This document shows, piece by piece, positions 41,862 to 62,562 of a DNA stretch of 64,000 nt (the first letter of the stretch is position 1; each line of letters begins with the position of its first letter). The notes below the pieces were generated by a model. That model did not search any database. It was given only the letters and a program-made list of their open reading frames with translations, and was not told the origin of the DNA. This stretch comes from Morinoia aosen (Eukaryota > Arthropoda > Malacostraca > Amphipoda > Talitridae), in assembly GCA_030386875.1 (NCBI GenBank), contig CM059570.1, forward strand, positions 30,619,422 through 30,683,421. Direction: 5' to 3'. The translations under genes and the position numbers were made by a program.

Positions 41862-44800
41862 GAGAATATCATTCAAACGAGTAGATACTCGTGAATATCA
41901 TTCAAACGAGTAGATACTCGTGAATATCATTCAAACGAGTAGATACTCGTGAATATCATTCAAACGAGTAGATACTCGTGAATATCATTCAAACGAGTAG
42001 ATCCTAGTGAATATCATTCAAACGAGTAGATCCTAGTGAATATCATTCAAACGAGTAAATACTCGTGAATATCATTTAAACGAGTAGATCCTAGTGAATA
42101 TCATTCAAACGAGTAGATACTCGTGAATATCATTCAAACGAGTAGATCCTAGTGAATATCATTCAAACGAGTAGATCCTAGTGAATATCATTCAAACGAG
42201 TAGATGCTCGTGAATATCATTCAAACGAGTAGATGCTCGTGAATATCATTCAAACGAGTAGATCCTAGTAAATATCATTCAAACGAGTAAATACTCGTGA
42301 ATATCATTTAAACGAGTAGATCCTAGTGAATATCATTCAAACGAGTAGATACTCGTGAATCATTCAAACGAGTAGATCCTAGTGAATATCATTCAAACGA
42401 GTAGATACTCGTGAATATCATTCAAACGAGTAGATCCTAGTGAATATCATTCAAACGAGTAGATACTCGTGAATATCATTCAAACGAGTAGATCCTAGTG
42501 AATATCATTCAAACGAGTAGATCCTAGTGAATATCATTCAAACGAGTAGATCCTAGTGAATATCATTCAAACGAGTAGATCCTAGTGAATATCATTCAAA
42601 CGAGTAGATCCTAGTGAATATCATTCAAACGAGTAAATACTCGTGAATATCATTTAAACGAGTAGATCCTAGTGAATATCATTCAAACGAGTAGATACTC
42701 GTGAATATCATTCAAACGAGTAGATACTCGTGAATCATTCAAACGAGTAGATCCTAGTGAATATCATTCAAACGAGTAAATACTCGTGAATATCATTTAA
42801 ACGAGTAGATCCTAGTGAATATCATTCAAACGAGTAGATACTCGTGAATATCATTCAAACGAGTAGATCCTAGTGAATATCATTCAAACGAGTAGATACT
42901 CGTGAATATCATTCAAACGAGTAGATCCTAGTGAATATCATTCAAACGAGTAGATCCTAGTGAATATCATTCAAACGAGTAAATACTCGTGAATATCATT
43001 TACACGAGTAGATCCTAGTGAATATCATTCAAACGAGTAGATACTCGTGAATATCATTTAAACGAGTAGATCCTAGTGAATATCATTCAAACGAGTAAAT
43101 ACTCGTGAATATCATTTAAACGAGTAGATCCTAGTGAATATCATTCAAACGAGTAGATACTCGTGAATCATTCAAACGAGTAGATCCTAGTGAATATCAT
43201 TCAAACGAGTAGATACTCGTGAATATCATTCAAACGAGTAGATCCTAGTGAATATCATTCAAACGAGTAGATACTCGTGAATATCATTCAAACGAGTAGA
43301 TCTTAGTGAATATCATTCAAACGAGTAGATCCTAGTGAATATCATTCAAACGAGTAAATACTCGTGAATATCATTTAAACGAGTAGATCCTAGTGAATAT
43401 CATTCAAACGAGTAGATACTCGTGAATATCATTTAAACGAGTAGATCCTAGTGAATATCATTCAAACGAGTAAATACTCGTGAATATCATTTAAACGAGT
43501 AGATCCTAGTGAATATCATTCAAACGAGTAGATACTCGTGAATATCATTCAAATTAGTAAATACTCGTGAATATCATTTAAACGAGTAGATCCTAGTGAA
43601 TATCATTCAAACGAGTAGATCCTAGTGAATATCATTCAAATGAGTAAATACTCGTGAATATCAATTAAACGAGTAGATCCTAGTGAATATCATTCAAACG
43701 AGTAGATCCTAGTGAATATCATTCAAATGAGTAAATACTCGTGAATATCATTTAAACGAGTAGATCCTAGTGAATATCATTCAAACGAGTAGATCCTCGT
43801 GAATATCATTCAAATGAGTAAATACTCGTGAATATCATTTAAACGAGTAGATCCTAGTGAATATCATTCAAACGAGTAAATACTCGTGAATATCATTCAA
43901 ACGAGTAGATCCTAGTGAATATCATTTCAAACGAGTAGATCTTCGTGAATATCATTCAAACGAGTAAATACTCGTGAATATCATTCAAACGAGTAGATCC
44001 TAGTGAATATCCATTCAAACGAGTAAATACTCGTGAATATCATTCAAACGAGTAGATCCTAGTGAATATCATTCAAACGAGTAGATCCTCGTGAATATCA
44101 TTCAAACGAGTAAATACTCGTGAATATCATTTAAACGAGTAGATCCTAGTGAATATCATTCAAACGAGTAGATCCTAGTAAATATCATTCAAACGAGTAG
44201 ATCCTAGTGAACATCATTCAAATGAGTAAATACTCGTGAATATCATTTAAAACGAGTAGATCCTAGTGAATATCATTCAAACGAGTAGATCCTAGAGAAT
44301 ATCATTCAAATGAGTAAATACTCGTGAATATCATTTAAACGAGTAGATCCTAGTGAATATCATTCAAACGAGTAGATCCTCGTGAATATCATTCAAACGA
44401 GTAAATACTCGTGAATATCATTTAAACGAGTAGATCCTAATGAATATCATTCAAACGAGTAGATCCTAGTGAATATCATTCAAAACGAGTAGATCCTAGT
44501 AAATATCATTCAAACGAGTAAATACTCGTGAATATCATTTAAACGAGCAGATCCTAGTGAATATCATTCAAACGAGTAGATCCTAGTGAATATCATTCAA
44601 ACGAGTAGATACTCGTGAATATCAGTCAAACGAGTAGATCCTAGTGAAATATCATTCAAACGAGTAATTACTCGTGAATATCATTTAAACGAGTAGATCC
44701 TAGTGAATATCATTCAAACGAGTAGATCCTAGTAAATATCATTCAAACGAGTAGATCCTAGTGAACATCATTCAAACGAGTAGATCCTAGTGAATATCAT

Positions 44801-46010
44801 TCAAACGAGTAAATACTCGTGAATATCATTTAAACGAGCAGATCCTAGTGAATATCATTCAAACGAGTAGATCCTAGTGAATATCATTCAAACGAGTAGA
44901 TACTCGTGAATATCAGTCAAACGAGTAGATCCTAGTGAATATCATTCAAACGAGTAGATCCTAGTAAATATCATTCAAACGAGTAGATCCTAGTAAATAT
45001 CATTCAAACGAGTAAATACTCGTGAATATCATTCAAACGAGTAGATCCTAGTAAATATCATTCAAACGAGTAGATCCTAGTGAATATCATTCAAACGAGT
45101 AGATACTCGTGAATATCAGTCAAACGAGTAGATCCTAGTGAATATCATTCAAACGAGTAGATCCTAGTAAATATCATTCAAACGAGTAGATCCTAGTGAA
45201 TATCATTCAAACGAGTAGATCCTAGTAAATATCATTCAAACGAGTAGATCCTAGTGAATATCAGTCAAACGAGTAGATCCTAGTGAATATCATTCAAACG
45301 AGTAGATCCTAGTAAATATCATTCAAACGAGTAGATCCTAGTGAATATCATTCAAACGAGTAAATACTCGTGAATATCATTCAAACGAGTAGATCCTAGT
45401 GAATATCATTCAAACGAGCAGATCCTAGTAAATATCATTCAAACGAATAGATCCTAGTGAATATCATTCAAACGAGTAAATACTCGTGAATATCATTCAA
45501 ACGAGTAGATCCTAGTGAATATCATTCAAACGAGTAGATACTCGTGAATATCATTCAAACGAGTAGATCCTAGTGAATATCAGTCAAACGAGTAGATCCT
45601 AGTGAATATCATTTAAACGAGTAGATCCTAGTGAATATCATTGAAACGAGTAGATCCTAGTGAATATCATTCAAAACGAGTAAATACTCGTGAATATCAT
45701 TCAAACGAGTAGATCCTAGTGAATATCATTCAAACGAGTAGATCCTAGTGAATATCAGTCAAACGAGTAAATACTCGTGAATATCATTTAAACGAGCAGA
45801 TCCTAGTGAATATCATTCAAACGAGTAAATACTCCTGAATATCATTCAAACGAGTAGATCCTAGTGAATATCATTCAAACGAGTAAATACTCCTGAATAT
45901 CATTCAAACGAGTAGATCCTAGTGAATATCATTCAAACGAGTAGATATACTCGTGAATATCATTCAAACGAGTAGATACTCGTGAATATCATTCACACGT
46001 GTTAATGCTA
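41862..46010. repeat. 29-bp minisatellite, ~143 copies (largest array)
   Basis: The unit is GAATATCATTCAAACGAGTA plus GATCCTAGT or GATACTCGT. The GATACTCGT type makes a palindrome ACGAGTA-ga-TACTCGT across the unit. A third type, AAATACTCGT, is usually followed by a TTTAAACG unit, forming a linked 58-bp pair in the left half. A 27-bp unit (GAATCATTC) recurs at 42357, 42732 and 43165, that is 13 and 15 units apart, showing block duplication. Confidence 0.97.
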
Positions 46011-46074
46011 GGAATTACCACCGTATGATACTCCCGATACTCGGCAGTATCAGATATCATTCATACGCGGAGAT

Positions 46075-46195
46075 AATGGGGAAGTCATCCGCGCATGTAG
46101 ATGCTTTGGAATGTCATCTATGCATGTAGATGCTTTGGAATGTTATCCATGCATGTAGATGCTTTGGAATGTCATCCAAGCATGTAGATGTTTCG
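46075..46195. repeat. diverged 29-bp units at the right edge of the large array, 4 copies
   Basis: The unit GCATGTAGATGCTTTGGAAT plus GTCATCCAT has the same 29-bp length as the main array. It keeps GTAGAT, CT, GAAT, TCAT and CA in register, so it is a diverged branch of the same family. Confidence 0.8.
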
Positions 46196-46478
46196 TCCAG
46201 TTTTTTGTAGCTTTGCTTGTCTAAAACATAACTGAGCTATATTAATTACCTAGTAAATAATTTTGAATTTCTTAACGTCCTATTTTTCAGATGCTATGCA
46301 TTAAAGGGTTAATTCCATGAATCAAGACACCGAGGAAGATTTTGAATAAACCGTTGGCATTCATCACCGCGCGCCGGTCCCGCATCAGCGAGCAGAATAT
46401 GAACGAATGGCCTGGAGCTCCTGAAATATCACGGCCAGCCACACGTGATCTTCATCTTAAATGCTCCATTAGGTGTTG
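46196..46478. other. unique sequence with GC-rich island
   Basis: 46340-46470 contains CCGCGCGCCGGTCCCGCATC and GAATGGCCTGGAGCTCCTG. It is high-complexity and unlike the flanking arrays, a candidate conserved element by composition only. Confidence 0.35.
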
Positions 46479-46595
46479 CCCAGTCTGACTTTTTCGCCGA
46501 CTGCGTGCATGTTTTTCGCCGCTTTAGCGATACAAGCGATTAAATCGCTCTGGCGGCGGAAAACATGCATGCAGGCGGCGAAAAGTTAGACTGGG
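46479..46595. mobile_element. palindromic CCCAGTC element, copy 2 (117 bp)
   Basis: Starts CCCAGTCTGACTTTTTCGCC and ends GGCGAAAAGTTAGACTGGG. The arms are complementary over about 50 bp and match copy 1 at 20453-20631. The centre is reduced to GATACAAGC. The flanking dinucleotide is TG on both sides. Confidence 0.87.
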
Positions 46596-46711
46596 TGGCG
46601 AATCCAGCTCCGCACAGCGGCACTTGTGAGATCGTTTGTGGCTGGTGTGGACCCGTGCGTCTTTAGTCTGTACAAATTATGGTGACTATTTTATCGATCT
46701 CTGATTTTCTG
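46596..46711. other. unique spacer
   Basis: No gene or repeat was recognised. Confidence 0.35.
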
Positions 46712-47270
46712 ATGATCACTGAGAGTGTTGAATGATCACTGACAGTGTTGAATGATCACTGACAGTGTTGAATGATCACTGACAGTGTTGAATGATCACT
46801 GAGAGTGTTGAATGATCCCGGACAGTGTTGAATGATCACTGACAGTGTTGAATGATCACTGACAGTGTTGAATGATCCCTGACAGTGTTGAATGATCATT
46901 GACAGTGTTGAATGATCACTGAGAGTGTTGAATGATCCCGGACAGTGTTGAATGATCACTGACAGTGTTGAATGATCACTGACAGTGTTGAATGATCACT
47001 GACAGTGTTGAATGATCACTGAGAGTGTTGAATGATCCCGGACAGTGTTGAATGATCACTGACAGTGTTGAATGATCAACTGAGAGTGTTGAATGATCCC
47101 TGACAGTGTTGAATGATCATTGACAGTGTTGAATGATCACTGAGAGTGTTGAATGATCCCTGACAGTGTTGAATGATCATTGAGAGTGTTGAATGATCCC
47201 TGACAGTGTTGAATGATCATTGACAGTGTTGAAATGATCACGGACAGTGGTGAATGATCACTGAACTTTG
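46712..47270. repeat. 20-bp minisatellite, ~28 copies
   Basis: The unit is GAATGATCACTGACAGTGTT with an internal CACTG-a-CAGTG palindrome. GAGAG, TCCCG, TCCCT and TCATT variants are interspersed; two 21-bp units lie near 47075 and 47231. Confidence 0.96.
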
Positions 47271-47404
47271 GCTTGAATGGAGTGATGCGTTTGCAACCGA
47301 TTCAAGTTGCGGTGATTTTTGTTTCGTTGGAATGATCACTATTTAATTGTAGGCTTCCTTTGAGCTATTCAATACCAGAAATGTGCGCATGTTCGTGTAG
47401 AAAA

Positions 47405-47690
47405 GCGTTTTCTGAAGTAATCATTCCAAGAAAACGGGCGTTTGTTCTTGTAGAAAACTATCTGTTGAAGTATTCATTCCAAGAAAATACCCGTCTCTTT
47501 ACGTAGCGAAGCATCCCCCGAAGTATTCCTTCCAAGAAAATACACGTATCTTTACGGAGAAAAGCATCCCTTGTATACATGCCGTTAAAAAACGATATTT
47601 TTACATAGAAAAGCATCCCCGAAGTATATATTCCGTAAAAATACCGTATCTCTACGTAAAAAAGCCTCCCCGAACTACATATATATTTCA
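47405..47690. repeat. degenerate ~50-55-bp repeat, ~5 copies
   Basis: GAAGTATTCATTCCAAGAAA, ATAC(C/A)CGT(A/C)TCTTTACG and AGAAAAGCATCCC recur in order. AGAAAAGCA and GAAGTAT are also the anchors of the next array, so the two may be related. Confidence 0.85.
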
Positions 47691-47704
47691 AGAAAATACA
47701 CGTT

Positions 47705-48250
47705 CTGAATATTTAAGTAGAAAAGCACCTTCAGAAGTATCACGTACCGTACATTTAAGTAGAAAGCACCTACATAAGTATCTCGAACTGTATATTGAAG
47801 TACAAAAAACACCTTCAGAAGTATCACATACCGTACATTTAAGTAGAAAAGCACCTTCAGAAGTATCAAATACCGTACATTTAAGTAGAAAAGCACCTTC
47901 AGAAGTATCACATACCGTACATTTAAGTAGAAAAGCACCTTCAGAAGTATCAAATACCGTACATTTAAGTAGAAAAGCACCTTCAGAAGTATCACTTACC
48001 GTACATTCAAGTAGAAAAGCACCTACATAAGTATCACGTACTGTATATTGAAGTACAAAAGCACCTTCAGAAGTATCACGTACCGTACATTTAAGTACAA
48101 AAGCACCTTCAGAAGTATCACCTACCGTACATTTAAGTACAAAAGCACCTTCAGAAGTATCACGTATCGAACATTTAAGTACAAAAGCACCTTCAGAAGT
48201 ATCACGTACCGTACATTTAAGTAGAAAAGCACCTTCAGAAGTATCCACAC
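47705..48250. repeat. 42-bp minisatellite, ~13 copies
   Basis: The unit is AAGTAGAAAAGCACCTTCAG plus AAGTATCACGTACCGTACAT plus TT. Minus-strand frames over it are period-42 artefacts. Confidence 0.95.
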
Positions 48251-48396
48251 GAAGACACCAGCCATCAATTCGCAGGCCGCACGTCAGAGGACGAGGCCGG
48301 ACGGTTGCAGTCCTCAGTCGGCCTCTCATCTGCCGGCGCGGCTTTGATCGCATGTCGGGACACCAATCTAAATGCCTCGAGTTAGTCGCTCCTCAA
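48251..48396. other. GC-rich unique island between two arrays
   Basis: Contains GCAGGCCGCACGTCAGAGG, CCTCAGTCGGCCTCTCATC and GCCGGCGCGGC. No gene was recognised. Confidence 0.4.
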
Positions 48397-48515
48397 TGTT
48401 GCCTGTGTGGCCACAATGTTGCCTGTGTTGCCGCAACATTGCCTGTGTTGCCGTAATGTTGCCTGTGTTGGCACAATGTTGTCTGTGTTGCCGCAAGGTT
48501 GCCTGCCTTACTGCA
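48397..48515. repeat. 20-bp minisatellite, ~6 copies
   Basis: The unit is TTGCCTGTGTTGCCGCAATG with C/T and GCCGC/GGCAC changes. Confidence 0.92.
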
Positions 48516-48735
48516 ATATTAATTTCGGATGAATACCATGTATGATGTTTTCAAACACGTACTCTTTGCTTGCGTATGTGTAAGAAAAAGTTTTGTCCAA
48601 GGTACATCCGCCAAGGCAAGTCTTGACATGTTAAAAGCAAACGTCACTGGCGAGTAAATCATCACATTTTCTTGAAGATCACAGCCTTACGATTTATTGA
48701 TGAAGTTGAAACATGATCCAGAAGCGTAATTTTCG

Positions 48736-48759
48736 CGTTAGATATTATTGTATCTAACG
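48736..48759. repeat. perfect hairpin, 9-bp arms
   Basis: CGTTAGATA and TATCTAACG around the loop TTATTG, 12 bp before the fold-back element. Confidence 0.88.
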
Positions 48760-48771
48760 AAGAGTCTTTTA

Positions 48772-48852
48772 TACAGGGTACGATAGTCAATCCTGCATTT
48801 TTATGCTTCCAGAGCAATCTAAAAAATGCAGGATTGATTGCCGCACTCTGTA
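48772..48852. mobile_element. 81-bp fold-back MITE, hairpin-forming
   Basis: The left end TACAGGGTACGATAGTCAAT and the reverse complement of the right end TACAGAGTGCGGCAATCAAT agree apart from five transitions. Both continue into CCTGCATTTTT, a perfect inner stem. The TA-CAGGGT ending is typical of mariner/Tc1-type MITEs. If transcribed, the same sequence is of pre-miRNA size and shape. Confidence 0.75.
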
Positions 48853-49727
48853 CATGTGAGCACTGAGTACTTGAATAAAAGTTTCATGGAATTGATTTCA
48901 AGTTTTTCTTGTTTAGTAATAAATTGTTGCATGTTTCACTGACAATGTTCTTCTTTAAACACGATTCATTGTTTCTCTTAATAAAAATGAAATTAAATAT
49001 TCCGTGTGGGGAGCACAACGTCATGCTTCGTCAATCTATATTGGGATGATATATTTTTGCTGTACTCGCGCTTGGATACTACATGAATTGTTGACTCGTG
49101 TCTGTGTATTTGTGAAAATCATTTGGTAGTCGAGTAGTGTAACTGTGATAGTTGAATCATATGTTTCTAAACCGTGTATCTATAAAAATCGTGTACTGGC
49201 TGAATCGTGTTCCTGTGATACAAACCTTATCTTACGATACATTCAAAAGGGTGGGCTGCAGACGTGGCTCATGTTATAGAATCGAAATATTTTAATTTTT
49301 AACACACGAGAATCAAATTCACTTCGCCAGTGCTAGTCAGATCAAATTTCACTCCTCGAGTATTTATATTTCGAATAAAGTTTCACGAATTTTTCCAGAA
49401 ATATTTCAAGGCTTATCACAGGCTTGTTTGAGGGAGAGAACTAAACGATTTATCGAACGTTACTCTCAAGATCCGACTTTCAAGGACCATTTTTCGTTGG
49501 TTTATCTGCTTCGTAAAATTGCGGTGATTGCACTTCAGTGCGCGCCACGCGCAAAACTGCAGAAGTTGGACACTCCTGGCGCACATGCAAGCGTAACTCT
49601 GACAGAACAAACATTGTAATTAAACATCAGGGCCCCAACTAGAGTCGGACTGGTACACAGAATGAGACATGAGTTGTGTTTGACGTACAAGTCGTGCAAG
49701 CACTAAATTGGGCAAACGTGCTATAGG
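48853..49727. other. unique sequence, no supported gene
   Basis: A 63-codon plus-strand frame at 49428-49619 and a 64-codon antisense frame overlap; neither has a recognised family. Confidence 0.4.
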
Positions 49728-50035
49728 AAATACGGCTCAATGAACATCGTTTAGATTAGCAGTGATGAATGAATGTTCTTTAGATAAAACAACTTAATTT
49801 ACGCCGGTTAGATTAGTAGTGATGAATGAATGTTTTTTAGATAAAACAACTTAATTTACGCTTGTTAGATTAGCAGTGATAAATCAATGTTCTTTAGATA
49901 AAACCACTTAATTTGCGCTAGTTAGATACGCAGTGATGAATGTTAAACAACTTAATTTAAATGAATGTTCTTTAGATTAAACAACTTGATTTACGCCGTT
50001 TAGATTAGCAGTGATAAATGAATGCTCAATCGTAC
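49728..50035. repeat. ~55-65-bp minisatellite, ~5 copies
   Basis: TTAGATTAGCAGTGATGAAT, GAATGTTCTTTAGATAAAAC and AACTTAATTTACGC recur. The third and fourth copies are rearranged (TTAATTTAAATGAATG at about 49952). Confidence 0.9.
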
Positions 50036-51169
50036 GTCTATCTTTCTTCGATGATAAGAAAGAAGCTTATTAGGTCTGGCTTGTGGACAAATTAGAAGTA
50101 CGAAAATTCATAAAAATAAGCACACTTATAACCTAATTTAATCTAATTAAACCTGATCTAAAATATTTATCTTCGAGATCTTCTACATGACTGCAAGGAC
50201 AGCCATTTTATGAAATATTTATTTTATCTCAGAAAAGAAGCCTTCTGTTTTTATTAATCAGGACTTCGAGTTCATTTGGTTTAATTTACTAGCTTCTCAC
50301 GGATATATCCTTTATTGGAAACGAGTGACTAATTATCATAATTTTAAATATTCCGCTCCGAGATCTACAGCACGATCGCGAGGATGAATATTTTTCGAAA
50401 GATGAATTTTATCTTAGAAAATGAAGCCTTTCAGCTTTCTAACTTCTGGCTATTTTTCTCTATAATGACTGTAAGTCCATCTGGTATCATTTATTTATTT
50501 CTCACGAATATGTAATTTACGGGGCATGGGTGAGCCAGTTCGTGCCCGTGGCTACCGACATTCTCACGGCGTTATAAAAAACAAATAAAAATTCTAGAAA
50601 AAAAATGGGAACGAATGCAAGTGACTTATGAAGTCAACTAATGTGTTTTGGAAGAAAAAAGTTCCCCCGAGTTCAGCTCATTACTTCTTTTCAGGGGATC
50701 AATAATGCGATTTTTTTCTTGTCTCTCGCACGTCAACGTCAACGTGTAGTAAAACTCTCAAGTATAATGTGCATACTTCAAAAGTTCTTTCAAATCAATA
50801 TTTTTATAACCAGTGAAATTATTTATTTTTAAATGGTATATTTTCAGAGTCAGTGACACATCAAGTGATGTTTTCTACAGTCCATGTATTGAAACGAAAA
50901 GATAAATTTCGACAGCCAGAGTGGAAATTTATTTTTTCATATTATGACTTCAAAATGCTCGCAGCAGGCAAGTCACGCTAAATTAACACCACATTTTATT
51001 CATGAGACTCGAATAGTGTGCGTAATTGGGCTGCTGAATAATGAACGAATTTAAAGGTTAATGCGGAAATTGAGTCCCGCTAATTCAGCCCCGTGCAGTA
51101 GCCGGACACATTCAGATAGCGCTGCCGTCATCGCCGTCCTATTTATTTCCCATTCTGTACCATTTACCC
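50036..51169. other. unique AT-rich sequence ending in a GC-richer island
   Basis: Two diverged copies of a ~200-bp segment may exist at about 50150-50290 and 50340-50520 (shared CGAGATCT, AAAGAAGCCTT/AATGAAGCCTT, TTTATCT). At 50980-51135 the sequence is high-complexity with GTGCGTAATTGGGCTGCTGA, GGTTAATGCGGAAATTGAG and CCCGCTAATTCAGCCCCG, a candidate conserved element. Confidence 0.4.
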
Positions 51170-51545
51170 ACCACTTATGTCTCATTTAAATCCGATTTGC
51201 ATCCCATTTATGTCCCATTTGTATCTCATTTGTGACCCATTATGTCCTATTTTGTCCCATTTATATCCATTTATTTCTCATTTATGTCGCATTTATAAAT
51301 ACGACTCAATGAACATCGTTTAGATTAGCAGTGATGAATGAATGTTCTTTAGGTAAAACGACTTAATTTAAATGAATGTTCTTTAGATAAAACGGAGCCA
51401 CTTATGTCCCACTTATGTCTGATTTATATCCCATTTATATCCTGTTTAAATCCCATTTGTATTCCATGTATATCCCATTATATCCCATTTAAATCCCATT
51501 TATATCCCATTATTTTCCGTTTGTATCCCATTTATTCATTATTTA
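51170..51545. repeat. ~12-bp minisatellite (CCCATTTATATC), interrupted
   Basis: Units such as TCCCATTTATGT, TCCCATTTGTAT and TCCCATTTAAAT run from 51170 to 51296 and from 51394 to 51545. The gap is filled by an unrelated inserted segment. Confidence 0.93.
51297..51393. repeat. inserted copy of the 49.73-kb repeat within another minisatellite
   Basis: AAATACG(A)CTCAATGAAC through ACTTAATTTA matches 49728-49801 with three differences. It is then joined to TTAATTTAAATGAATGTTCT, matching 49951-49982. The insert is thus a shortened version of the other array. Confidence 0.93.
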
Positions 51546-51759
51546 TATTATATCGAATACAAGCACATAGTTCAGGCCAGTCATTCCTTTTCCGGAATTT
51601 ACTCATGAAAATCTTCATTTTAACATTTTTATGGAAAAATCGAATAGCATTCTGGGTACAATTCAGTTCACGATCCACGCTCTCCAGGTACACTCATGTG
51701 TCTTTCTGTGCTTCTAAAAGTGTCGCTTGGCAAATCATTTCACTGGGTTTGCTGCATCG

Positions 51760-52215
51760 TTATGACTCAATGAATCGCCACGACCCACTCTGCTCTGCTC
51801 ACTGAATCGCCACGACCCACTCTGCTCTGCTCACTGAATCGCCTCGACCCACTCTGCTTTGCTCACTGAATCGCCTCGACCCACTCTGCTCTGCTCACTG
51901 AACCGCCTCGACCCTCTCTGCTCTGCTCACTGAATCGCCACGACCCTCTCTGCTCTGCTCACTGAATCGCCACGACCCTCTCTGCTCTGCTCACTGAGTC
52001 GCCTCGACCCTCTCTGCTCTGCTCACTGAATCGCCACGACCCTCTCTGCTCTGCTCACTGAATCGCCACGACCCTCTCTGCTCTGCTCACTGAATCGCAA
52101 CGACCCACTCTGCTCTGCTCACTGGATCACCACTACCCACTCTGCTCTGCTCACTGGATCACCACTACCCACTCTGCTCTGCTCACTAGATCGCCACGAC
52201 CCACTCTGCTCATTC
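51760..52215. repeat. 32-bp minisatellite, ~14 copies
   Basis: The unit is ACTGAATCGCCACGACCCAC plus TCTGCTCTGCTC. CCACG/CCTCG and CCCAC/CCCTC variants occur; the right edge uses ACTGGATCACCACTACC. Confidence 0.96.
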
Positions 52216-53315
52216 AGAGTAGGCCAGAGATGCTAAAGCTTTACTTAGTTTTACTCTCACGTCAAGGGCTTTCATTCCACGCCTCTATCGCCCTCACTGA
52301 CCGCTCCGTCTCCTTATGAGGCGTCACTTCAGTCTTGCATGCTTAGCTTCTGGAAGTCCCCTCAGAGGGGCACAACTATTGTACTTATGGGAATTAGCGC
52401 TTCTAGGGGAAAAATGTGAGATCCCGAGCTGGAGGTAAAGTAGGACTGTTTATATTTTTTATTAGAATTTGTTTTACTTTGCTACGACCTTCTTTTTAGG
52501 GTTCACTGATGCAGTTTTTCAGTGCTTTTGACTTTCTTATTTCTTGTTTCATCAAATTTTTCCTAACATATAGGCTCTACGAAGATGAGGTCTTACCGGT
52601 ACCTAAAGATGAGGTCTTCCCGGTGCCTTAAGCTCCTTACTTATAAGTGCTTTCCTCCTTGCTTTTTGGACACATTTGAAGTGTGTAGGGCACCAGTATA
52701 ACTCTTTTGCCAGAGGATCTATAATTGCGCAAAAGGTATACTTGGGCGGTTAATATCATTAACGCACTGGTAAAAACGTTAGACCGGATTTTCTCAAACC
52801 ATCTAATCTAGTTTAATCTGTGTCAGGCCGCACAGGGATTGTCGAGCCTTTTTGTGTTAGTTACCCATAATCTTAAGTATTTTCTTCATGTGTCCAGCTC
52901 TCTGAACGCCGACTTATCTATTTCCCCGCGCTGATGTTGCGTTTGTGCATTTACTTTAGTTAGCCCTTAAATATCATTTGTATTACATGTCGATACTCCA
53001 ATGTTTCTTGTGTTATCTAGCTATATACGACTAATATTTTAAATGCAATTTTGAGTGTTGTACCCTGTTATGCAGTAGCTCACGTCTGTACGCACTACTT
53101 TTGCAATAGAAAATAAATCACTGTCTTTGTTAAAATATATCAGTGTATGTGATAGGGGCTTCAAAGAGATTCAGCATTAAACAAGGCACACCCTGAGGTC
53201 AAAAGAGTTTCCTTTCTCCTTGTTGACACAGGCTTTAGTCTTATACGACACTTCGCCTAATAAGGGGTGTAAGGAGCCACCTCGGAAGGACGAACTATTT
53301 CGCATAGTTTGTCGA
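52216..53315. other. unique sequence with diverged similarity to 14.6-14.9 kb
   Basis: GGGAATTAGCGCTTC..GGGGAAAA and GGACACATTTGAAGTGTG..TTTTGCCAGA match elements near 14770 and 14590. A 28-bp two-copy repeat (GATGAGGTCTTACCGGTACC) lies at 52580-52627. No gene was recognised. Confidence 0.4.
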
Positions 53316-53406
53316 TAGGAAGACGCTGTCGTAGTTCGGCATTAACAGAATTGACTTCTGTTGCCCTAGCGGTCTCATACGGCGCAGACAGTTGCTCGTC
53401 TTCCTA
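53316..53406. repeat. hairpin cassette 1 (outer arm TAGGAAGACG)
   Basis: Outer arms TAGGAAGACG and CGTCTTCCTA are exact 10-bp complements, extended by CTGTC/GACAG. The inner hairpin is AACAGAA-ttgac-TTCTGTT flanked by GGC/GCC. The shared core words are CGTAGTTCGGC, GCCCTAGCGG and ATACGGCG. Confidence 0.9.
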
Positions 53407-53408
53407 AC

Positions 53409-53483
53409 GGTACCACCGTAGTTCGGCACTAACAGAATTTACTTCTGTTGCCCTAGCAGACTTATTACGGCGTAGGTGGTACC
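53409..53483. repeat. hairpin cassette 2 (outer arm GGTACCACC)
   Basis: GGTACCACC and GGTGGTACC are exact complements, with CCGTA/TACGG inside. The inner hairpin is AACAGAA-tttac-TTCTGTT. Same core as cassette 1. Confidence 0.92.
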
Positions 53484-53505
53484 CACACACACACCTCACC
53501 CTAGC

Positions 53506-53581
53506 GGTACCACCGTAGTTCAGCACATAACAGAATTTACTTCTGTTGCCCTAGCGGACTGAATACGGCGCAGGTGGTACC
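53506..53581. repeat. hairpin cassette 3 (outer arm GGTACCACC)
   Basis: Same arms as cassette 2, with small loop changes (GTTCAGCACATAACAGAA, GACTGAATACGG). A CA-rich spacer separates it from cassette 2. Confidence 0.92.
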
Positions 53582-53609
53582 CACACTCACCTCACCCCCC
53601 ACACACAAC

Positions 53610-53684
53610 GGTATCGCCGTAGTTCGGCACTAACAGAATTTACTTCTGTTGCCCTAGCGGACTGATTACGGCGTAGGCGGTACC
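53610..53684. repeat. hairpin cassette 4 (outer arm GGTATCGCC)
   Basis: GGTATCGCC pairs with GGCGGTACC (one G-T wobble). The change from CCACC to CGCC on the left is matched by GGTGG to GGCGG on the right. The inner hairpin is unchanged. Confidence 0.92.
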
Positions 53685-53967
53685 CACACGAACCTCAGGA
53701 AGGGCAGCTGCGAAGAAAAGCTAGCGCCCCGGAAAAGGTAGCTGTACAGAAGACAGCCCCTTTTCCACGAACCCTCACGTCGACCGCACGACGGTATCGA
53801 CAATCTGTTTCTGAAAAGCTTCTACTGATACGAGTACCACCGTATTTGCTTCCCAGACAGTGGACGACTAACATATCCTCCTGATCCTATCACCTTGATT
53901 CTATCGATATATTTGCACCTGAGCGTGGATGTAGAGAGGAGGTTTTTCAAACCCAAGAGCAGTTTTT
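53685..53967. other. unique GC-richer sequence with a decayed cassette trace
   Basis: ACGGTATCGACAATC at about 53790 and CGAGTACCACCGTAT at about 53830 resemble the outer arms of the preceding cassettes without the inner hairpin. No gene was recognised. Confidence 0.4.
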
Positions 53968-55455
53968 GATTCAGTTGCCATGGGAAATTCGGGAAATGCT
54001 TCAGTTGCCATGGGAAATTTGGGAAATGATTCGGTTGCCATGGGAAATTCGGAAAATGCTTCAGTTGCCATGGGAAATTCGGGAAATGATTCGGTTGCCA
54101 TTGGAAATTCGGGAAATGATTCAGTTGCCATGGGAAATTCGGGAAATGCTTCAGTTGCCATGGGAAATTCGGGAAATGATTCAGTTGCCATGGGAAATTC
54201 GGGAAATGATTCGGTTGCCATGGGAAATTCGGGAAATGATTCGGTTGCCATGGGAAATTCGGGAAATGATTCAGTTGCCATGGGAAATTCGGGAAATGAT
54301 TCAGTTGCCATGGGAAATTCGGGAAATGATTCGGTTGCCATGGGAAATTCGGGAAATGATTCGGTTGCCATGGGAAATTCGGGAAATGATTCGGTTGCCA
54401 TGTGAAATACGGAAAATGATTCGGTTGCCATGGGAAATTCGGGAAATGATTCAGTTGCCATGGGAAATTCGGGAAATGATTCGGTTGCCATGGGAAATTC
54501 GGGAAATGATTCGGTTGCCATGGGAAATTCGGGAAATGATTCGGTTGCCATGGGAAATTCGGGAAATGATTCAGTTGCCATGGGAAATTCGGGAAATGAT
54601 TCGGTTGCCATGGGAAATTCGGGAAATGATTCAGTTGCCATGGGAAATTCGGGAAATGCTTCAGTTGCCATGGGAAATTCGGGAAATGATTCAGTTGCCA
54701 TGGGAAATTCGGGAAATGATTCGGTTGCCATGGGAAATTCGGGAAATGATTCGTTTGCCATGGGAAATTCGGGAAATGATTCAGTTGCCATGGGAAATTC
54801 GGGAAATGATTCAGTTGCCATGGGAAATTCGGGAAATGATTCGGTTGCCATGGGAAATTCGGGAAATGATTCGGTTGCCATGGGAAATTCGGGAAATGAT
54901 TCGGTTGCCATGGGAAATACGGAAAATGATTCGGTTGCCATGGGAAATTCGGGAAATGATTCAGTTGCCATGGGAAATTCGGGAAATGATTCGGTTGCCA
55001 TGGGAAATTCGGGAAATGATTCGGTTGCCATGGGAAATTCGGGAAATGATTCGGTTGCCATGGGAAATTCGGGAAATGATTCAGTTGCCATGGGAAATTC
55101 GGGAAATGATTCGGTTGCCATGGGAAATTCGGGAAATGATTCAGTTGCCATGGGAAATTCGGGAAATGATTCAGTTGCCATGGGAAATTCGGGAAATGAT
55201 TCGGTTGCCATGGGAAATTCGGGAAATGATTCAGTTGCCATGGGAAATTCGGGAAATGATTCGGTTGCCATGGGAAATTCGGGAAATGATTCAGTTGCCA
55301 TGGGAAATTCGGGAAATGATTCGGTTGCCATGGGAAATTCGGGAAATGATTCGGTTGCCATGGGAAATTCGGGAAATGATTTAGTTGCCATGGGAAATTC
55401 GGGAAATGATTCGGTTGCCATGGGAAATTCGGGAAATGATTCGGTTGCCATGTCA
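53968..55455. repeat. 30-bp minisatellite, ~50 copies
   Basis: The unit is GATTCGGTTGCCATGGGAAA plus TTCGGGAAAT. Variation is nearly confined to TTCGGTT/TTCAGTT and GAAATGAT/GAAATGCT. Long frames of 343-547 codons exist on both strands and in several phases (NHFPNFPWQ, ATESFPEFPM, MIRLPWEIRE, MGNSGNDSVA). Such simultaneous openness shows they are artefacts of a stop-free 30-mer, not a protein gene. Confidence 0.97.
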
Positions 55456-55564
55456 ACCTAATCAATTCGCGTTTCTCCTATGCCCTTCTCAGAAGTTTCA
55501 ACGAGAAGTGCCTCATTAAATTTGAAGTTTTGCAAGCGTAAGATAATTGCCTGAGATTTTTCAT

Positions 55565-55596
55565 GGAAGACGCTTCCGTAGTTGACCTACGTACGG
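55565..55596. repeat. compact double hairpin resembling the 53.3-kb cassettes
   Basis: GGAAG-acg-CTTCC is followed at once by CGTAG-ttgac-CTACG, with CCGTA/TACGG overlapping. The word GGAAGACGCT, the CGTAGTT start and the TTGAC loop are shared with cassette 1 at 53316. Confidence 0.6.
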
Positions 55597-56148
55597 TCTA
55601 TTGAACGTATTTTACATAGAATTTAGGCCAACTTATTTGGAAGGAATAAAATTTATTTTTTGCTCATCTTATTCACTTAAATCACCTGAGGTTATTTTTA
55701 GAGGAACTGAACATCCGATCGGCTACGAGCTTCATTTTAAAACTACGTATTCAATCCTCATGGGCTTATATTTCTTCAATTTATGAGTAATATAAAATAT
55801 GGCATAGATAAAATTAGTGGTATAAAAATAAAAATTAAAATCGATAGATGAGCATATCGAACGCGAGCATGACTTTGGTTGCACCACTTCAATCCACTCC
55901 AATAATTTACATTATTAACGAGTTAAATAAATTAATAATTTTTCACACAGAAAGCAATTAAATTGATTTCCCGAACAAAATGAGAGGTTGAAAGTCAGAT
56001 GGCCTCACACTGTGCCCTTGCATAATTTAAGACGGCAGAAACAAAAAGTTGTTTCATTAATGCTTTGAAATTCCCCAATTTTTCCTTCGTAAAGTTGGGA
56101 AATTTTTCCTTCGTAACATGTACATATGTTCCACTTAGTTGCAATTGA
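55597..56148. other. AT-rich unique sequence
   Basis: A duplicated TTTTTCCTTCGTAA occurs at about 56078-56120. No gene was recognised. Confidence 0.4.
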
Positions 56149-56345
56149 GGCGTGGCCACCTTGGCCTAGTGGTTAAGAGCGCTCGCTGTTCGTGTGGAGA
56201 GTTCGAGGGTTCGAAAATCGGGAGTTCGTGCCGGGTGTTTGTACCTGTTAGAAAAAGAAAGAAAATCAGCCACAATACTCTACCTGATAAAATAGGAAGC
56301 GGCTCGACCGACAGTAACTTAATCTCAACTCCAACCTGACATCAG
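56149..56345 (+). mobile_element. tRNA-derived SINE (head with A and B boxes)
   Basis: TGGCCTAGTGG (56162-56172, then TTAAGAGC) matches the internal Pol III A box, and GGTTCGAAA (from 56208) matches the B box. They are spaced about 46 nt apart, as in tRNA genes. The sequence does not close a full cloverleaf acceptor stem and continues into a ~120-bp non-tRNA body with GGAGTTCGTGCCGG, so a SINE is more likely than a functional tRNA gene. The 3' end and target duplication could not be fixed. Confidence 0.75.
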
Positions 56346-58257
56346 TTATTCGAAAAATAAGTGTACTTGATGACATGTGTCTGCTTAACATCACTAAATG
56401 TCTGTTGAGACGTTCAATTTCATTGAATCATTTGCCTGGTGTTCGGTGGGAAGAAAATTATGTGCATCTACAAACCAACACGAGACAATGATAGTTTCTT
56501 TTAAAATTATCAGACTTATTCATGTGAGTGGAAATTTAGACTGTTTCATAAGTTGGAAGCTTTATTGCTCGGGTGATTGGGATACAGTTTAATCATTTTA
56601 GGTTATGGCTTCTTGTTTTCATGACTTAAGTGCAGGCGATAACAAATAGTTTACAACACGCGATGTTATAATTTCATCTTACGATGTTAAAAATTTGTTG
56701 AAATAGTTCTTACTGTTTTACCGTCACTGCAATTCGAAATCAACCTCATTTTATTTGACAGAGAAGTACCAAGCCCTGAAAATCGAACGACCCAACTAAG
56801 GAAACACGACATTTGTTTCAAGCGATGACTTCGCTTCCAGGACGTTGGATCCGAACGCGTTTTTCTGGAAGCCCCAGACCAAAACTGACGCCTGCTCACA
56901 AATTCGGAGACGTCAAATACGCCTAGTCGTTGGTATCGAAATTCAGCAAATCATAGGAAAGTCGAGCAGTCTGTCTTTGAATGGCGAGATCCAGGCGCAA
57001 AAGCGTCGTCTCTCTGAGGCGCGATCAGTTGCTGGGCCTGAAATATTGGAAGTCGATGGCCAGTTCAAGTGAGCGAGGCTGCCGTGTTCCAGCCAGCAAA
57101 ATTCGCTGAGACCGAGGGAACCATGAATGGGACTCGGTTTTGTACGTTCCATCATCATTGAGGTGGGTATTGACCTTGCAAGTTTATTGATTGTACGCTT
57201 GTCTCAAAGTCCCGGGCTCGAGACAACGCATTTTGGAATGAAGGATGAGCGAATTCGAAGGACAAGGATTTTTGAATTTGACTTGGGTCTGTGTGTGTGT
57301 GTGGGAGTGGGGGTGGAGTTAAGGGGGTATTTACTCTACAAATTTATTGATTGCCAGTATGTGTGAATATCTGCATATCTAAAGTGCAATGACTTATCTT
57401 AGGTGCCGAGGGCAAAGACAAGTTAAGTTAGTAAACTATCATCGACAGCTTCAATATCTGATTCGATTTTTTGCGCAGTTTTTGTAATTTGAGTATGAAA
57501 GACTGATGATTGAACAGAAAGTCTATAACTTCTAGAGAGATGGATATTCTTTAGAACCAATACAACTTGAAACGATTTCTTCGGAAGAAAACAAAGTATT
57601 TGAATAATTACGCTGAAATTGTAAGGAAAAGAAAACACCAAGCGAGCACATCGACCACGAGCATGTTTTCAGAAATATCAATTTAATCTGCTTCGTTCAA
57701 TAATTTTTCAATTTACCAGTTATATAAAATGAATTACTGAGCAGCAGCAACAATTTTTCTTTTGGTCCTTTAGGCACGCTATATGTTCATGTAAATAAAT
57801 CACAGTGCATATGATCATGCTTCATGCATCTGCATGCTTTGCTCGTCTTTAATATTTATAATAACTAGTCCACCCCCCTTTACATGCAAGAAAAAAGAGG
57901 GCGAAATGAGAGAAAATCCGTCAGCAATTAAAAAATTCAATCTCTCGAGAGTTGATGAGGCCGCGTGCACACGGCCCGTATCACAGATACGCTCATCACG
58001 CACTTTCGGCTGGCTTCGGACAGACTTAGAGACGGACGGACACGGCTCCTGTTATTGTATAGATTGTAACTACGCTAATTATTATATCCTACACAGAAAC
58101 TTATTTCTATGATGAGACATACGTGGACAGCCATGTAATCGAGTTGTCGCTGTTTTCAAGGCATTCGTGGAATCTCAGAAAGTAACTGAACTTTTCAAAT
58201 TTTTGTAAATGCTTGGAATTCAATATTTAAAAATGTGGCAGCCGTCTGAGGCAGACA
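56346..58257. other. unique sequence, no supported gene
   Basis: Frames of 60-92 codons overlap on both strands without known families. (GT)n at about 57287-57303. The 19-bp word GTATCACAGATACGCTCAT at 57978-57996, shared with 32933-32951, is the only recognised link to other parts. Confidence 0.4.
57978..57996. repeat. 19-bp core shared with the 32.9-kb palindrome
   Basis: GTATCACAGATACGCTCAT is identical to 32933-32951. Its left half is the palindrome GTATC-aca-GATAC. Confidence 0.9.
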
Positions 58258-58276
58258 GACAGACAGACAGACAGAC
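58258..58276. repeat. (CAGA)n microsatellite
   Basis: About five CAGA tetramers in a row. Confidence 0.95.
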
Positions 58277-58614
58277 CCGATATTAGAGTTAGAAGAAAAA
58301 CAAGTTTTTGTTTTCCTGTTGTGTGTTTTCCAATTCCAAAAGGTTTGTTTTCCATTTTTTTCCTGTCTAACTAAAGAATCAATTCCCCTTTCAACGTTTA
58401 ATCCACTTCAACAAGTTGTTCTAATGTATTTTATTTTTAATTCAATTTTTACCTAAATATTTTCTTTGAAATTGACCACCGATTGCCAGTTTCACCCTAG
58501 CTCTGATTTCGGTGACAACCTGATGTCAGTGCCTGTATATGACGTTGCAATGAAAAAACTCCGACTGTAAAGATAAACGGGGAGTTTCAACTGGTATAAT
58601 ATAATTTCAAAGGG
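58277..58614. other. unique AT-rich spacer
   Basis: No gene was recognised; GGGGAGTTTCAACT occurs twice (about 58580 and 58614) at the edge of the next array. Confidence 0.4.
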
Positions 58615-60415
58615 GAGTTTCAACTCGCTAGTCTACGAATTAAATTTAAAGCGTTTTAGGCCTGTTTTCTGTTTCACCTGATATGATAAATCCAAAAACA
58701 CATGGGACATTCAGCCTATGATTTAAATTTAGAACGTTTTAGGTTTACTTCCTGTTTCACCTGATATGATAAATCTAAAAACAAATGGGATATTCAGCCT
58801 ATGTTTTAAATTTAGAACGTTTTAGGTCTACTTCCTGTTTCATCTGATATGATAAATCCAAAAACACATGGGATATTCAGCCTATGATTTAAATTTAGAA
58901 CGTTTTAGGTCTACTTCCTGTTTCACCTGATATGATAAATCCAAAAACACATGGGACATTCAGCCTATGATTTAAATTTAGAACGTTTTAGGTCTACTTC
59001 CTGTTTCACCTGATATGATAAATCCAAAAACACATGGGACATTCAGCCTATGATTTAAATTTAGAACGTTTTAGGTCTACTTCCTGTTTCATCTGATATG
59101 ATAAATCCAAAAACACATGGGACATTCAGCCTATGATTTAAATTTAGAACGTTTTAGGTCTACTTCCTGTTTCACCTGATATGATAAATCCAAAAACACA
59201 TGGGACATTCAGCCTATGATTTAAATTTAGAACGTTTTAGGTCTACTTCCTGTTTCACCTGATATGATAAATCCAAAAACACATGGGGCATTCAGCCTAT
59301 GATTTAAATTTAGAACGTTTTAGGTCTACTTCCTGTTTCACCTGATATGATAAATCCAAAAACACATGGGATATTCAGCCTATGATTTAAATTTAGAACG
59401 TTTTAGGTCTACTTCCTGTTTCACCTGATATGATAAATCCAAAAACACATGGGATATTCAGCCTATGATTTAAATTTAGAACGTTTTAGGTCTACTTCCT
59501 GTTTCACCTGATATGATAAATCCAAAAACACATGGGACATTCAGCCTATAATTTAAATTTAGAACGTTTTAGGTCTACTTCCTGTTTCACCTGATATGAT
59601 AAACCCAAAAACACATGGGATATTCAGCCTATGATTTAAATTTAGAACGTTTTAGGTCTACTTCCTGTTTCACCTGATATGATAAATCCAAAAACACATG
59701 GGATATTCAGCCTATGATTTAAATTTAGAACGTTTTAGGTCTACTTCCTGTTTCACCTGATATGATAAATCCAAAAACACATGGGATATTCAGCCTATGA
59801 TTTAAATTTAGAACGTTTTAGGTCTACTTCGTGTTTTACCTGATATAATAAATCCAAAAACACATGGGATATTCAGCCTATGATTTAAATTTAGAACGTT
59901 TTAGGTCTACTTCCTGTTTCACCTGATATGATAAATCCAAAAACACATGGGACATTCAGCCTATGATTTAAATTTAGAACGTTTTAGGTCTACTTCCTGT
60001 TTCACCTGATATGATAAATCCAAAAACACATGGGATATTCAGCCTATGATATAAATTTAGAACGTTTTAGGTCTACTTCCTGTTTCACCTGATATGATAA
60101 ATCCAAAAACACATGGGACATTCAGCCTATAATTTAAATTTAGAACGTTTTAGGTCTACTTCCTGTTTCACCTGATATGATAAACCCAAAAACACATGGG
60201 ATATTCAGCCTATGATTTAAATTTAGAACGTTTTAGGTCTACTTCCTGTTTCACCTGATATGATAAATCCAAAAACACATGGGACATTCAGCCTATGATT
60301 TAAATTTAGAACGTTTTAGGTCTACTTCCTGTTTCACCTGATATGATAAATCCAAAAACACATGGGGCATTCAGCCTATGATTTAAATTTAGAACGTTTT
60401 AGGTCTACTTCCTGT
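58615..60415. repeat. 83-bp satellite-like array, ~22 copies
   Basis: The unit runs TGTTTCACCTGATATGATAA, ATCCAAAAACACATGGGACA, TTCAGCCTATGATTTAAATT, TAGAACGTTTTAGGTCTACT, TCC. Spacing of 83 bp was checked directly (58919 to 59002). Copies differ mainly at GGGACA/GGGATA/GGGGCA. The left-most unit is strongly diverged and the right edge stops abruptly within a unit. Confidence 0.97.
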
Positions 60416-62227
60416 GGATGGCTTCAGTGAGGAGCCTTAAGCTTTAGACCTAAGCGTGAACCCGGAGTGTGTGCCTCGGCAGATGTTTCAAGTTTGCTTA
60501 ACTTTGTGCGGTGACTTCCCTCATGAGAATGCCAATGAGGTTTCACCAAGTTCTTAAATTGATCTGACATTTAAAAATATTTGAATATTAGGCTTATCTC
60601 ATCGTAAAAATTACGTGAGGGCTCAAGACAGAACAACTTACACACTAGTTGCAGCAAATGTAAGTATGTGCAACGCACTGTTTTGCAGCAAGTGTGTGTG
60701 TGCGTGTTTGTGTATGTGCTGGGGTCTAGATTCATCGTGAAACGAATACGCACGTTGTTGCAAATAACTGTAACATAGATTGTAATTTTTTTTATGAAAA
60801 AACACACAGAGTATACACGAGCTAATGCAGCAGCGCCAAGCTACTCTCCATAACACAGATTCTGATGTTTGCAAAGTAAACTTCATGCGCGTAGCGCACT
60901 AAAACTTTACGCGCGTGGTGCAATGAAACAATTACGCGCGAGGGGGTCTGTCAGCGATCGACTCTAATTAAATCGAACTCAACTGAAATGAATGGAAACG
61001 AAAGTAATTACGCTGCTCGAGTGATATCATTGAAGCCGTTTCTGTTCTGTTTTGTTTTCATTCTAGCTCTTAATTTGTAATTTTCTCTTCGTTTGGTTTG
61101 CTAAACGTGAAGCTTTATGTTATTTTGTAGCTCGTTTGCATTCTTCCGACATGAATTGAAGGCTCATGGTATAATTCGACTTTTTATCCTGTCATAATAG
61201 CATCTTGGCGATTATTCACGTTAACGTCAGAATATCTTCCCCATTTATCAAATTATCCTTACATTGTTTCCACAAATGAAATATTTGCTTCACTGATTCC
61301 TGAGTGTTGTCTCGCGCTCATCTTAAATTGTATTGAAAATAGAAATCTTTCCACAGGTTCGTACATAGGCTAGGCCTCGACTTCATGAGGCCTAGCCGGC
61401 AGATTGGAATTATTTCTTTCTTGTGTTCAAGCTGGATAGCGCTTTTCAGAGGACATCTCAATGAATGATCACCGCAAATCTTTAGCTAAAACTGTTTAGT
61501 ATCAAATATTACTATATTTTGCGGAGGCTTCGAAATCAGAAATAAATAATAATCAAATAGTATGAATATTTTGATGTTGAGTTACCACCAGCTACATACA
61601 TTACGTTGCAAAAATAACGACGGAACGCAGAGCACTTCTATTATTAAATATGTAATTAAGTTCTATTAAACCACTAAACGAAACAAACATTGCTAAGATT
61701 CTGCCGAAGTCCCACTCAGAAAAAAGAGGCAACAGCTCACACTGAAATTCACCTAATTTCAAACCAGGGCAGTAATGTAAGTGGACCCAAGTTTAGACGT
61801 GCGCTATTTTCAGACTTATATTCCAAATTATCATCAATTCAAATTTCAAGACGTCCTTGACTTCATAATTAGGTTGATGGCTAATTTTAAATTTCGTGTT
61901 GACGTACGCATGTGTTTGAGGCCAATTCATCGTATTTATTTCGATCTAAATGAGTATCACTGAATGCCATAAACACTCGGATAACCAGACGCTGGGTGTC
62001 ATGATAAAAGTAATATTACGGCTCTTGATGTAATGTTAGAGTACGTTTCTGGTCGGTAAACTGACTACTTCTTGTACGAATTTGGAAATAGGAATTAAGG
62101 CAATTAAGCGGACGTGAGTGGATTTTTGTGACCTGAATTTGTATGTTATGTTCCTCAGGTGATGAGCTTCATTACGTCGAGAGAGCGTCGTTTGAATTTG
62201 CTGAATGAGCTTTGAGGTGAAAACTGC
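60416..62227. other. unique sequence, no supported gene
   Basis: A (GT)n run lies at about 60690-60718. Three imperfect GCGCG(T/C)..GCACT/GCAATGAAAC copies lie at about 60889-60945. A hairpin lies at 61368. Frames of 60-82 codons have no known family. Confidence 0.4.
61368..61397. repeat. perfect hairpin, 11-bp arms
   Basis: GGCTAGGCCTC and GAGGCCTAGCC are exact complements around GACTTCAT. Confidence 0.92.
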
Positions 62228-62562
62228 TCAATGACGTCACGTTTAGTGGACACTTCTGCGTCTTTGAATAATAAATGACGTCACATTTATTCAAGACATC
62301 TGCGTCTTTGGATAAGAAATGGCGAAATGTTTGGTGAAGACTTCTACGTCTTTGGACAATAAATGACGTTATGTTTGGTGTAGACTTCTACATCTTTGGA
62401 CAATAAATGACTTTGTGTTTTGTGTAGACTTCTGCATCTTTGGACAATAAATGACGTCACATTTAGACAAAACTTCTGCGTCTTTGGATAAGGAAAGACG
62501 TCACGTTTGGTGTAGGCTATTTGTGTCTTTGAATAATAAACGACGTCATATTTGGTGTAGAG
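62228..62562. repeat. 44-bp minisatellite with CRE motifs, ~7.5 copies
   Basis: The unit is AATGACGTCACGTTTAGTGG plus ACACTTCTGCGTCTTTGAAT plus AATA. Full TGACGTCA palindromes remain at 62232, 62276 and 62452; GACGTCA remains at about 62498 and 62542, and the motif is lost in the middle units. Confidence 0.94.

Follow-up and report, generated by a model that had tools for sequence, protein, structure and literature searches.

Tandem hairpin modules in the long terminal repeat of a Ty3/Gypsy-type retrotransposon of Morinoia aosen: a probable repeated RNA handle in the transcript leader

The window, by which we mean the whole stretch of 64,000 nucleotides analysed here, contains four tandem hairpin cassettes, whose extent had been given as 53316-53684 in a preliminary description made from the sequence. 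The cassettes are indeed found there, but the unit to which they belong is larger and comprises a whole long terminal repeat (LTR), 52821-53802. The features of this unit are as follows.

52816..52820, plus strand: left target-site duplication ATCTG, 5 bp, read from the sequence
52821..53802, plus strand: solo LTR, 982 bp, TGTCAGG...ATCGACA, with ends common to other genomic copies; contains all four cassettes
53112..53117, plus strand: AATAAA, probable poly(A) signal by its sequence, about 200 bp before the array and followed by a GT-rich stretch
53289..53313, plus strand: simple hairpin GACGAACTAT...ATAGTTTGTC directly preceding the array (fold of 53273-53313: -10.5 kcal/mol, z -1.3)
53316..53406, plus strand: cassette 1, outer arms TAGGAAGACG/CGTCTTCCTA, inner arms CTGTC/GACAG (sequence, folding, covariance model)
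53409..53483, plus strand: cassette 2, arms GGTACCACC/GGTGGTACC (sequence, folding, covariance model)
53506..53581, plus strand: cassette 3, arms GGTACCACC/GGTGGTACC (sequence, folding, covariance model)
53610..53684, plus strand: cassette 4, arms GGTATCGCC/GGCGGTACC, with GGTACCGCC in seven sister copies (sequence, sister loci, folding, covariance model)
53731..53766, plus strand: further hairpin GGAAAAGG...CCTTTTCC, past the array and before the end of the LTR (folding, LTR comparison)
53803..53807, plus strand: right target-site duplication ATCTG, 5 bp, read from the sequence

The ends TGTCAGG...ATCGACA are common to eight compared loci. The left flanks of these loci are unrelated in L001, L002 and L004 and consist of element interior in L003, L005, L007 and L008; L006 is shortened on the left, its match beginning at LTR position 357, and the right flanks differ among all eight except L003 and L008. 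In other copies the same repeat flanks an internal region with a primer-binding site (PBS) and pol, and judged by this, by its TG...CA ends and by the ATCTG on either side, the window copy is a dead solo LTR of a Ty3/Gypsy-type retrotransposon. Two further loci, L009 and L020, have cassettes and a downstream part that are family-like, with the match to the window LTR starting at LTR position 184 in both; the start of U3 appears to have been swapped or lost in them. Directly after the LTR, L003 and L008, which lie 42 kb apart on one contig, carry 32-bp repeats from about 2050 to the end of each locus, and they are probably a duplicated segment. Dense minisatellites of many periods were also found in a tandem-repeat scan of window positions 44000-64000: 29 bp x 69 (44000-45999, at the scan edge), 32 bp x 14 (51766-52211), among others 30 bp x 49.5 (53967-55452, beginning about 165 bp past the LTR) and 83 bp x 21.5 (58633-60415).

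The arms and core words of the preliminary description are present in the sequence where it had placed them, with two corrections. The arm GGTATCGCC, given there for cassette 4, is a change of the window copy, as all seven other loci of the first search have GGTACCGCC/GGCGGTACC, and cassette 3 of the window has GTAGTTCAGC instead of the word GTAGTTCGGC. The arms of the seven sister loci thus indicate a single compensatory exchange, A-T to G-C, between the arms of cassettes 2 and 3 and those of cassette 4. The preliminary argument that both sides of the arms change together holds as far as complementarity is concerned, but its basis within the window comes down to a single base pair and one set of arms that differs altogether; since tandem copies inherit their arms as linked blocks, joint change is a weaker argument than had been claimed. 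A covariance model built from the cassettes gave four full matches in the window (53322-53395, 53409-53483, 53506-53581 and 53610-53684, with E from 1e-22 to 1.6e-26), which locate the cassettes and do not validate them, as the window cassettes were part of the training set; on the minus strand, the same model matched the inner hairpin three times, in part and at E 1.4. Folded singly, cassettes 1-3 of the window copy have z-scores of -3.55, -2.99 and -2.96 and cassette 4, at full length, -2.06, and the cassette hairpins have stabilities of -26 to -33 kcal/mol. In cassette 1, the second inner arm pair CTGTC/GACAG is offset by TTGCT.

The preliminary description had recognised no RNA family here, and we agree: at the Rfam gathering threshold there were 0 matches in the 64,000 bases of the window, so that an Rfam identity was rejected, as was a tRNA or tmRNA identity, none being found by search. 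With the threshold relaxed to E <= 10, the sole Rfam match of the window LTR was mir-6505 on the minus strand (E 0.02; 24.1 bits, with the threshold at 96), which covers 53727-53768 and does not touch the cassettes. CTE-like words, a resemblance to tRNA arms, and pseudoknots were dropped after inspection by eye, and the cassette core gave 0 matches in the prokaryote genomes of GTDB and in IMG/VR, collections without animal genomes.

In the host assembly (1.99 Gb, 29 contigs) the four window cassettes are accompanied by a very large number of relatives, with 7402 cassette cores (20-base query, up to 2 mismatches; control 2) and at least 2317 LTR 3' ends (29-base query, up to 3 mismatches; control 0). 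A gapped cassette pattern, whose count includes the main family, gave 3145 matches (control 0), and a pattern for cassette 1 of the older class, with the main apical stem excluded, gave 161 (control 0). The loci fetched for comparison are not a random sample: they are the best matches from a first search, in which 40 places of 2470 candidates were scored, and the first 30 listed places of each of the two patterns, those of the gapped pattern all lying on C1 and those of the older-class pattern on C1, C2, C4 and C6. Some overlap or belong to the same array (L021/L022, L027-L029, L031/L032, L034-L037, L014/L045), and merging left 203 distinct genomic cassettes in 61 arrays, 30 of them with four cassettes, 19 with three, 10 with two, one with five and one with a single cassette. 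A matching arm pair is absent in 19 of the 203 cassettes (24 by a stricter count), mostly by single changes or truncation; non-complementary arms at a frequency similar to complementary ones, which the preliminary description had named as evidence against its own reading, did not occur.

LTR sequence is present on at least one side of the array in every one of the 60 loci that were fetched by cassette pattern, immediate contact not being required; the other 8 of the 68 loci were left out of this count because LTR sequence was part of their query. The cassettes are thus not independent small-RNA genes or mobile modules, and with this the cluster of small structured RNAs and the self-mobile inverted-repeat modules that had been considered at first both fall away. 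Stand-alone small-RNA modules were rejected on the same count. What looks like a cluster of small RNAs can thus belong to an LTR, and this is a trap for structure-based RNA gene finders. The main array of L031/L032 is preceded, at a distance of about 1.1 kb, by a partial cassette match within another LTR fragment that is ~70-76% identical.

The spacing of the copies supports their identification as LTRs, with seven same-strand pairs spaced 5.5-5.6 kb among the 40 listed places. Directly 3' of the LTR lies the PBS TGGCGCCCGAACAGGGAC, which we take to be of the tRNA-Lys type. The internal region of one copy, examined in two pieces, has the domain order protease, integrase, reverse transcriptase (RT), RNase H: the first piece (L039) has integrase H2C2 and rve domains and the second (L040) rve, RVT_1 and RT_RNaseH in that order, while the aspartyl-protease match is weak and under the Pfam cut-off. 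Integrase before RT is the arrangement described for Ty3/Gypsy elements of the Gmr1 clade (PMC8220671), which the present element also resembles in its TG...CA LTR, 5-bp target-site duplication and tRNA-type PBS. We describe it as a Ty3/Gypsy-type element with a Gmr1-type pol order, putatively of this clade. The reading frames on the gag side and of protease-integrase overlap out of phase in L039, whereas L041 has one long frame. A CCHC zinc knuckle was not found in the internal region examined.

The conservation of the LTR is uneven along its length. When five old LTRs (L012-L016) are compared to L002, the upstream half (first 452 bp) is 72-79% identical, cassettes 2-4 are 85-95% identical (partly deleted in L012) and the last 118 bp are 85-96% identical, so that the segment 53685-53802 is among the best-conserved parts of the LTR. 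Cassette 1 varies from 74 to 92%, with the lowest values in L012 and L014, both of which have the older apical hairpin, and the spacer between cassettes 3 and 4, at 70-84%, is no better conserved than the upstream half. Of 14 aligned LTRs, 11 have an intact AATAAA; it is altered in L013 and L015, and lost in L033. In the stretch that starts at LTR position 346 and runs up to the ATG of gag, L001, L002 and L005 contain 0, 1 and 0 ATGs, compared to 3.4-3.8 in shuffles (P 0.009, 0.087 and 0.021), with the post-LTR leader of L039 used for all three and the start point picked after looking. Among 19 tabulated LTRs, five (L001, L003, L005, L007, L033) have no ATG beyond position 345 and 14 have at least one. 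The ATG deficit is thus modest. Taken together, the position of the AATAAA, the conservation and the small number of ATGs suggest a location for the array in U5, within the leader of the genomic RNA and close before the PBS.

The pairing of the arms was examined in an alignment of 146 cassettes, 83 of them distinct, from 38 loci. Standard pairing was found in 93.6% of 1568 pair cells, which bears out the preliminary claim that the arms are complementary, and slid structures on the same alignment pair in only 35-55%; changes on both sides were observed in 74 cells vs 24.3 in shuffles, though shared ancestry, and the fitting of the alignment to the structure, make all these pairing counts too high. 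The covariation itself is real, although few independent events underlie it. At pair 7 of the outer helix P1, the 129 cassettes of type 2-4 have G-C in 69, A-T in 40, A-C in 11, G-T in 6 and C-C in 3 cases. The outer arms are known in three versions, plus the one A-T/G-C exchange; those of cassette 1 differ from those of type 2-4, and a further version, ACAACTGTC/GACAGTTGT, with 9 bp paired, is found in the older loci L043, L046 and L047, the first two of which are near-identical to each other. A whole helix has also been exchanged at the tip of the fold: in cassette 1 of the older LTR class, the apical stem TCAGG/CCTGA replaces ACAGAA/TTCTGT, in the same place and in a different register. An innermost stem of at least 4 bp is present in 25 of 28 parsed older cassettes 1, including L054 and L070, which pair otherwise, and L049, L063 and L065 fall short of it; the stem TAAGG/CCTTA in L060 and L062 represents one lineage. 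Folding also revealed a second helix, P1b (YAGUUC/GGACUR), that is absent from the preliminary description. At its end, 20 of 29 old cassettes 1 have a C-G pair and 61 of 68 old cassettes 2-4 have U-A instead, and this covarying pair, the only one of the six in P1b, points to an extra helix.

The unpaired core behaves differently from the helices around it. When cassette 1 is compared with the type 2-4 cassette that comes first in LTR order, identity in 24 older-class arrays is 84% in the core and 41% in helices and loops; in 26 other arrays, of which L063 and L066 carry the older hairpin, the values are 83% and 64%. A further 11 arrays offered no usable pair and were omitted. Under a looser sorting, which takes the type 2-4 cassette with the lowest coordinate, the values are 84/42% and 84/66% (25 and 25 arrays). 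This contrast, along with the exchanged but still paired helices, shows that the sequence of the unpaired core and the pairing of the helices are kept separately. Two patterns for other outer arms beside intact young-type core words, with four arm positions changed at once, gave 0 matches; as they demand both these four changes and the young-type core, they say little against other arms, and the version ACAACTGTC/GACAGTTGT did come from older loci.

Some of our observations do not favour a fold in RNA. Single changes at paired positions in 141 type 2-4 cassettes are split between 75 G-U and 65 A-C (p 0.45), and given this balance the dead copies show no preference for which strand folds; the minus strand of three tested cassettes in fact folds equally well or slightly better (z -3.1 to -3.7). 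P1b is weakened in young copies: in cassette 1 it has C-C as its end pair in 16 of 21 and U-U as an inner pair in 20 of 21, while the end pair in young cassettes 2-4 is U-G in 55 of 73 and U-U in 18 of 73. Four strong hairpins would furthermore hinder scanning ribosomes, which counts against placing the array in a leader. A hybrid cassette (1678-1753, minus strand), in which the 5' arm of cassette 1 and the 3' arm of cassette 2 do not match, is present in L025 and L026, whose LTRs are 5.5 kb apart and appear to be both LTRs of one element; cassettes have thus recombined with each other, and an array with one mispaired module was then copied at least once.

We suggest that the cassettes are probably a repeated RNA handle in the transcript leader of the element rather than a cluster of separate small-RNA genes. 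Each module in the genomic RNA would begin with the outer helix P1, in one of its alternative sequences, continue with P1b, and lead beyond it through a 5-nt bulge CUARC and a GGC/GCC step to the apical hairpin, which would have two alternative sequences; the conserved unpaired nucleotides would be AUUACGGCGYA and the bulge. That the array acts as RNA in the 5' leader is what we infer from sequence, and we propose more cautiously that the conserved unpaired core may be a protein site that is used several times over. The module occurs two to four times in 59 of the 61 arrays, and such repetition of a core that stays constant and unpaired while the helices around it are exchanged would be expected of a multivalent protein site on RNA. 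The most likely partner would be the element's own Gag, for selection and dimerisation of the genomic RNA, in which case Gag binding would require a motif other than CCHC; repetition would give avidity and let cassettes replace one another. We put the probability of this reading, in which tandem structured RNA modules occupy the U5/5' leader and their core is perhaps a Gag site for genome selection or pairing, at roughly 0.5. With somewhat less confidence than this, we can speculate that the cassettes represent a family of RNA motifs not described before, modular handles in which the unpaired core is fixed and the helices can be interchanged, set in tandem in U5 as a multivalent genome-recognition array with helix exchange.

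The main alternative is that the structured leader serves translation, as an IRES or ribosome shunt, or the export of unspliced RNA in a CTE-like manner, and not packaging. The leader is long and ATG-poor, with no ATG beyond LTR position 327 in L001, L003, L005 and L007, its hairpins are stable enough to impede scanning, and the transcript would presumably need to be exported unspliced; nonetheless, the plus strand of the LTR has no Rfam match with E <= 10, and a module number that ranges from 1 to 5 in the 61 arrays, though partly a result of decay after insertion, would be odd for a compact IRES, so that we regard control of translation or export as unlikely. We find it less likely still that the cassettes are DNA sites for host or element proteins, such as an enhancer or insulator, with arms that are incidental or form a cruciform. 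The conserved core words, the similar folding of both strands and the balance of G-U and A-C changes would all agree with this, but a site in duplex DNA has no need for the complementarity that is kept when arms and apical stems are replaced, and the less conserved part of the LTR is its upstream half, in which promoter elements would be expected to lie.

Retrozymes have LTRs that carry hammerhead ribozymes (PMC4918200), and by analogy an undescribed self-cleaving ribozyme could be considered, as a conserved unpaired core within variable helices, a location in the LTR and tandem copies are all in line with it. We consider this very improbable, since no hammerhead or other Rfam ribozyme matches, the element encodes integrase, RT and RNase H, unlike the non-autonomous retrozymes, and repeated cleavage of the leader would strip the 5' end from the element's own genome. 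It is just as hard to credit that the cassettes have no function and are tandem duplications whose paired appearance is kept by gene conversion and recent ancestry. The arms do travel as blocks, the hybrid cassette of L025/L026 was copied, independent compensatory events are few, and the arm patterns described above, one for each side, found nothing beside intact young-type cores. Conversion would, however, leave unexplained why each alternative arm and apical stem is complementary to itself, why core and helices differ as 84% vs 41%, and why the cassettes diverge more slowly.

Structured leaders in LTRs are already known as a kind, and it is the tandem design that is unusual. Retroviral 5' leaders have packaging and dimerisation stem-loops upstream of gag, near the PBS, with a fold that is conserved more than the sequence. 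The array resembles these by analogy, having several stem-loops upstream of gag and by the PBS with a fold kept more than sequence, and its location after AATAAA and before the PBS, in a region that is ATG-poor in the youngest copies, may on sequence grounds be that of a packaging signal; it differs in being made mostly of 2-4 homologous copies of one module in U5, and its Gag site and packaging role are putative. Much less is known of cis-acting RNA signals in the LTR retrotransposons of animals than of those in retroviruses. The likeness to retrozymes is that a conserved RNA motif is borne in LTRs (PMC4918200), and the difference is that the window LTR has no hammerhead match at E <= 10 and the element has its own pol. 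The TRIM elements Helenus, Ajax and Cassandra also have a structured segment embedded in the LTR, where it is derived from tRNA or 5S sequence (PMC10886601); the cassette LTR, with no tRNA, 5S or other Rfam match, differs from these TRIMs with their Pol III promoters. For the Gmr1 clade, as far as it is covered by PMC8220671, PMC3601003 and other open-access literature, we found no description of an LTR array of this kind. Since our comparison was with open-access papers, repeat catalogues such as Repbase may already contain the LTR family itself.

With thousands of copies, 1-5 modules per array (61 arrays) and each main helix occurring in at least two versions, the family is a natural mutant series, which could teach us in what way a retroelement labels its genome as its own and what exchange between tandem copies contributes to the evolution of structured RNA.

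Two of the older loci also have a second cassette of the cassette 1 type in one array (L043:1651-1725 and L046:1303-1377), with the older apical hairpin and the arms ACAACTGTC/GACAGTTGT, indicating that cassette 1 itself was duplicated in that lineage.
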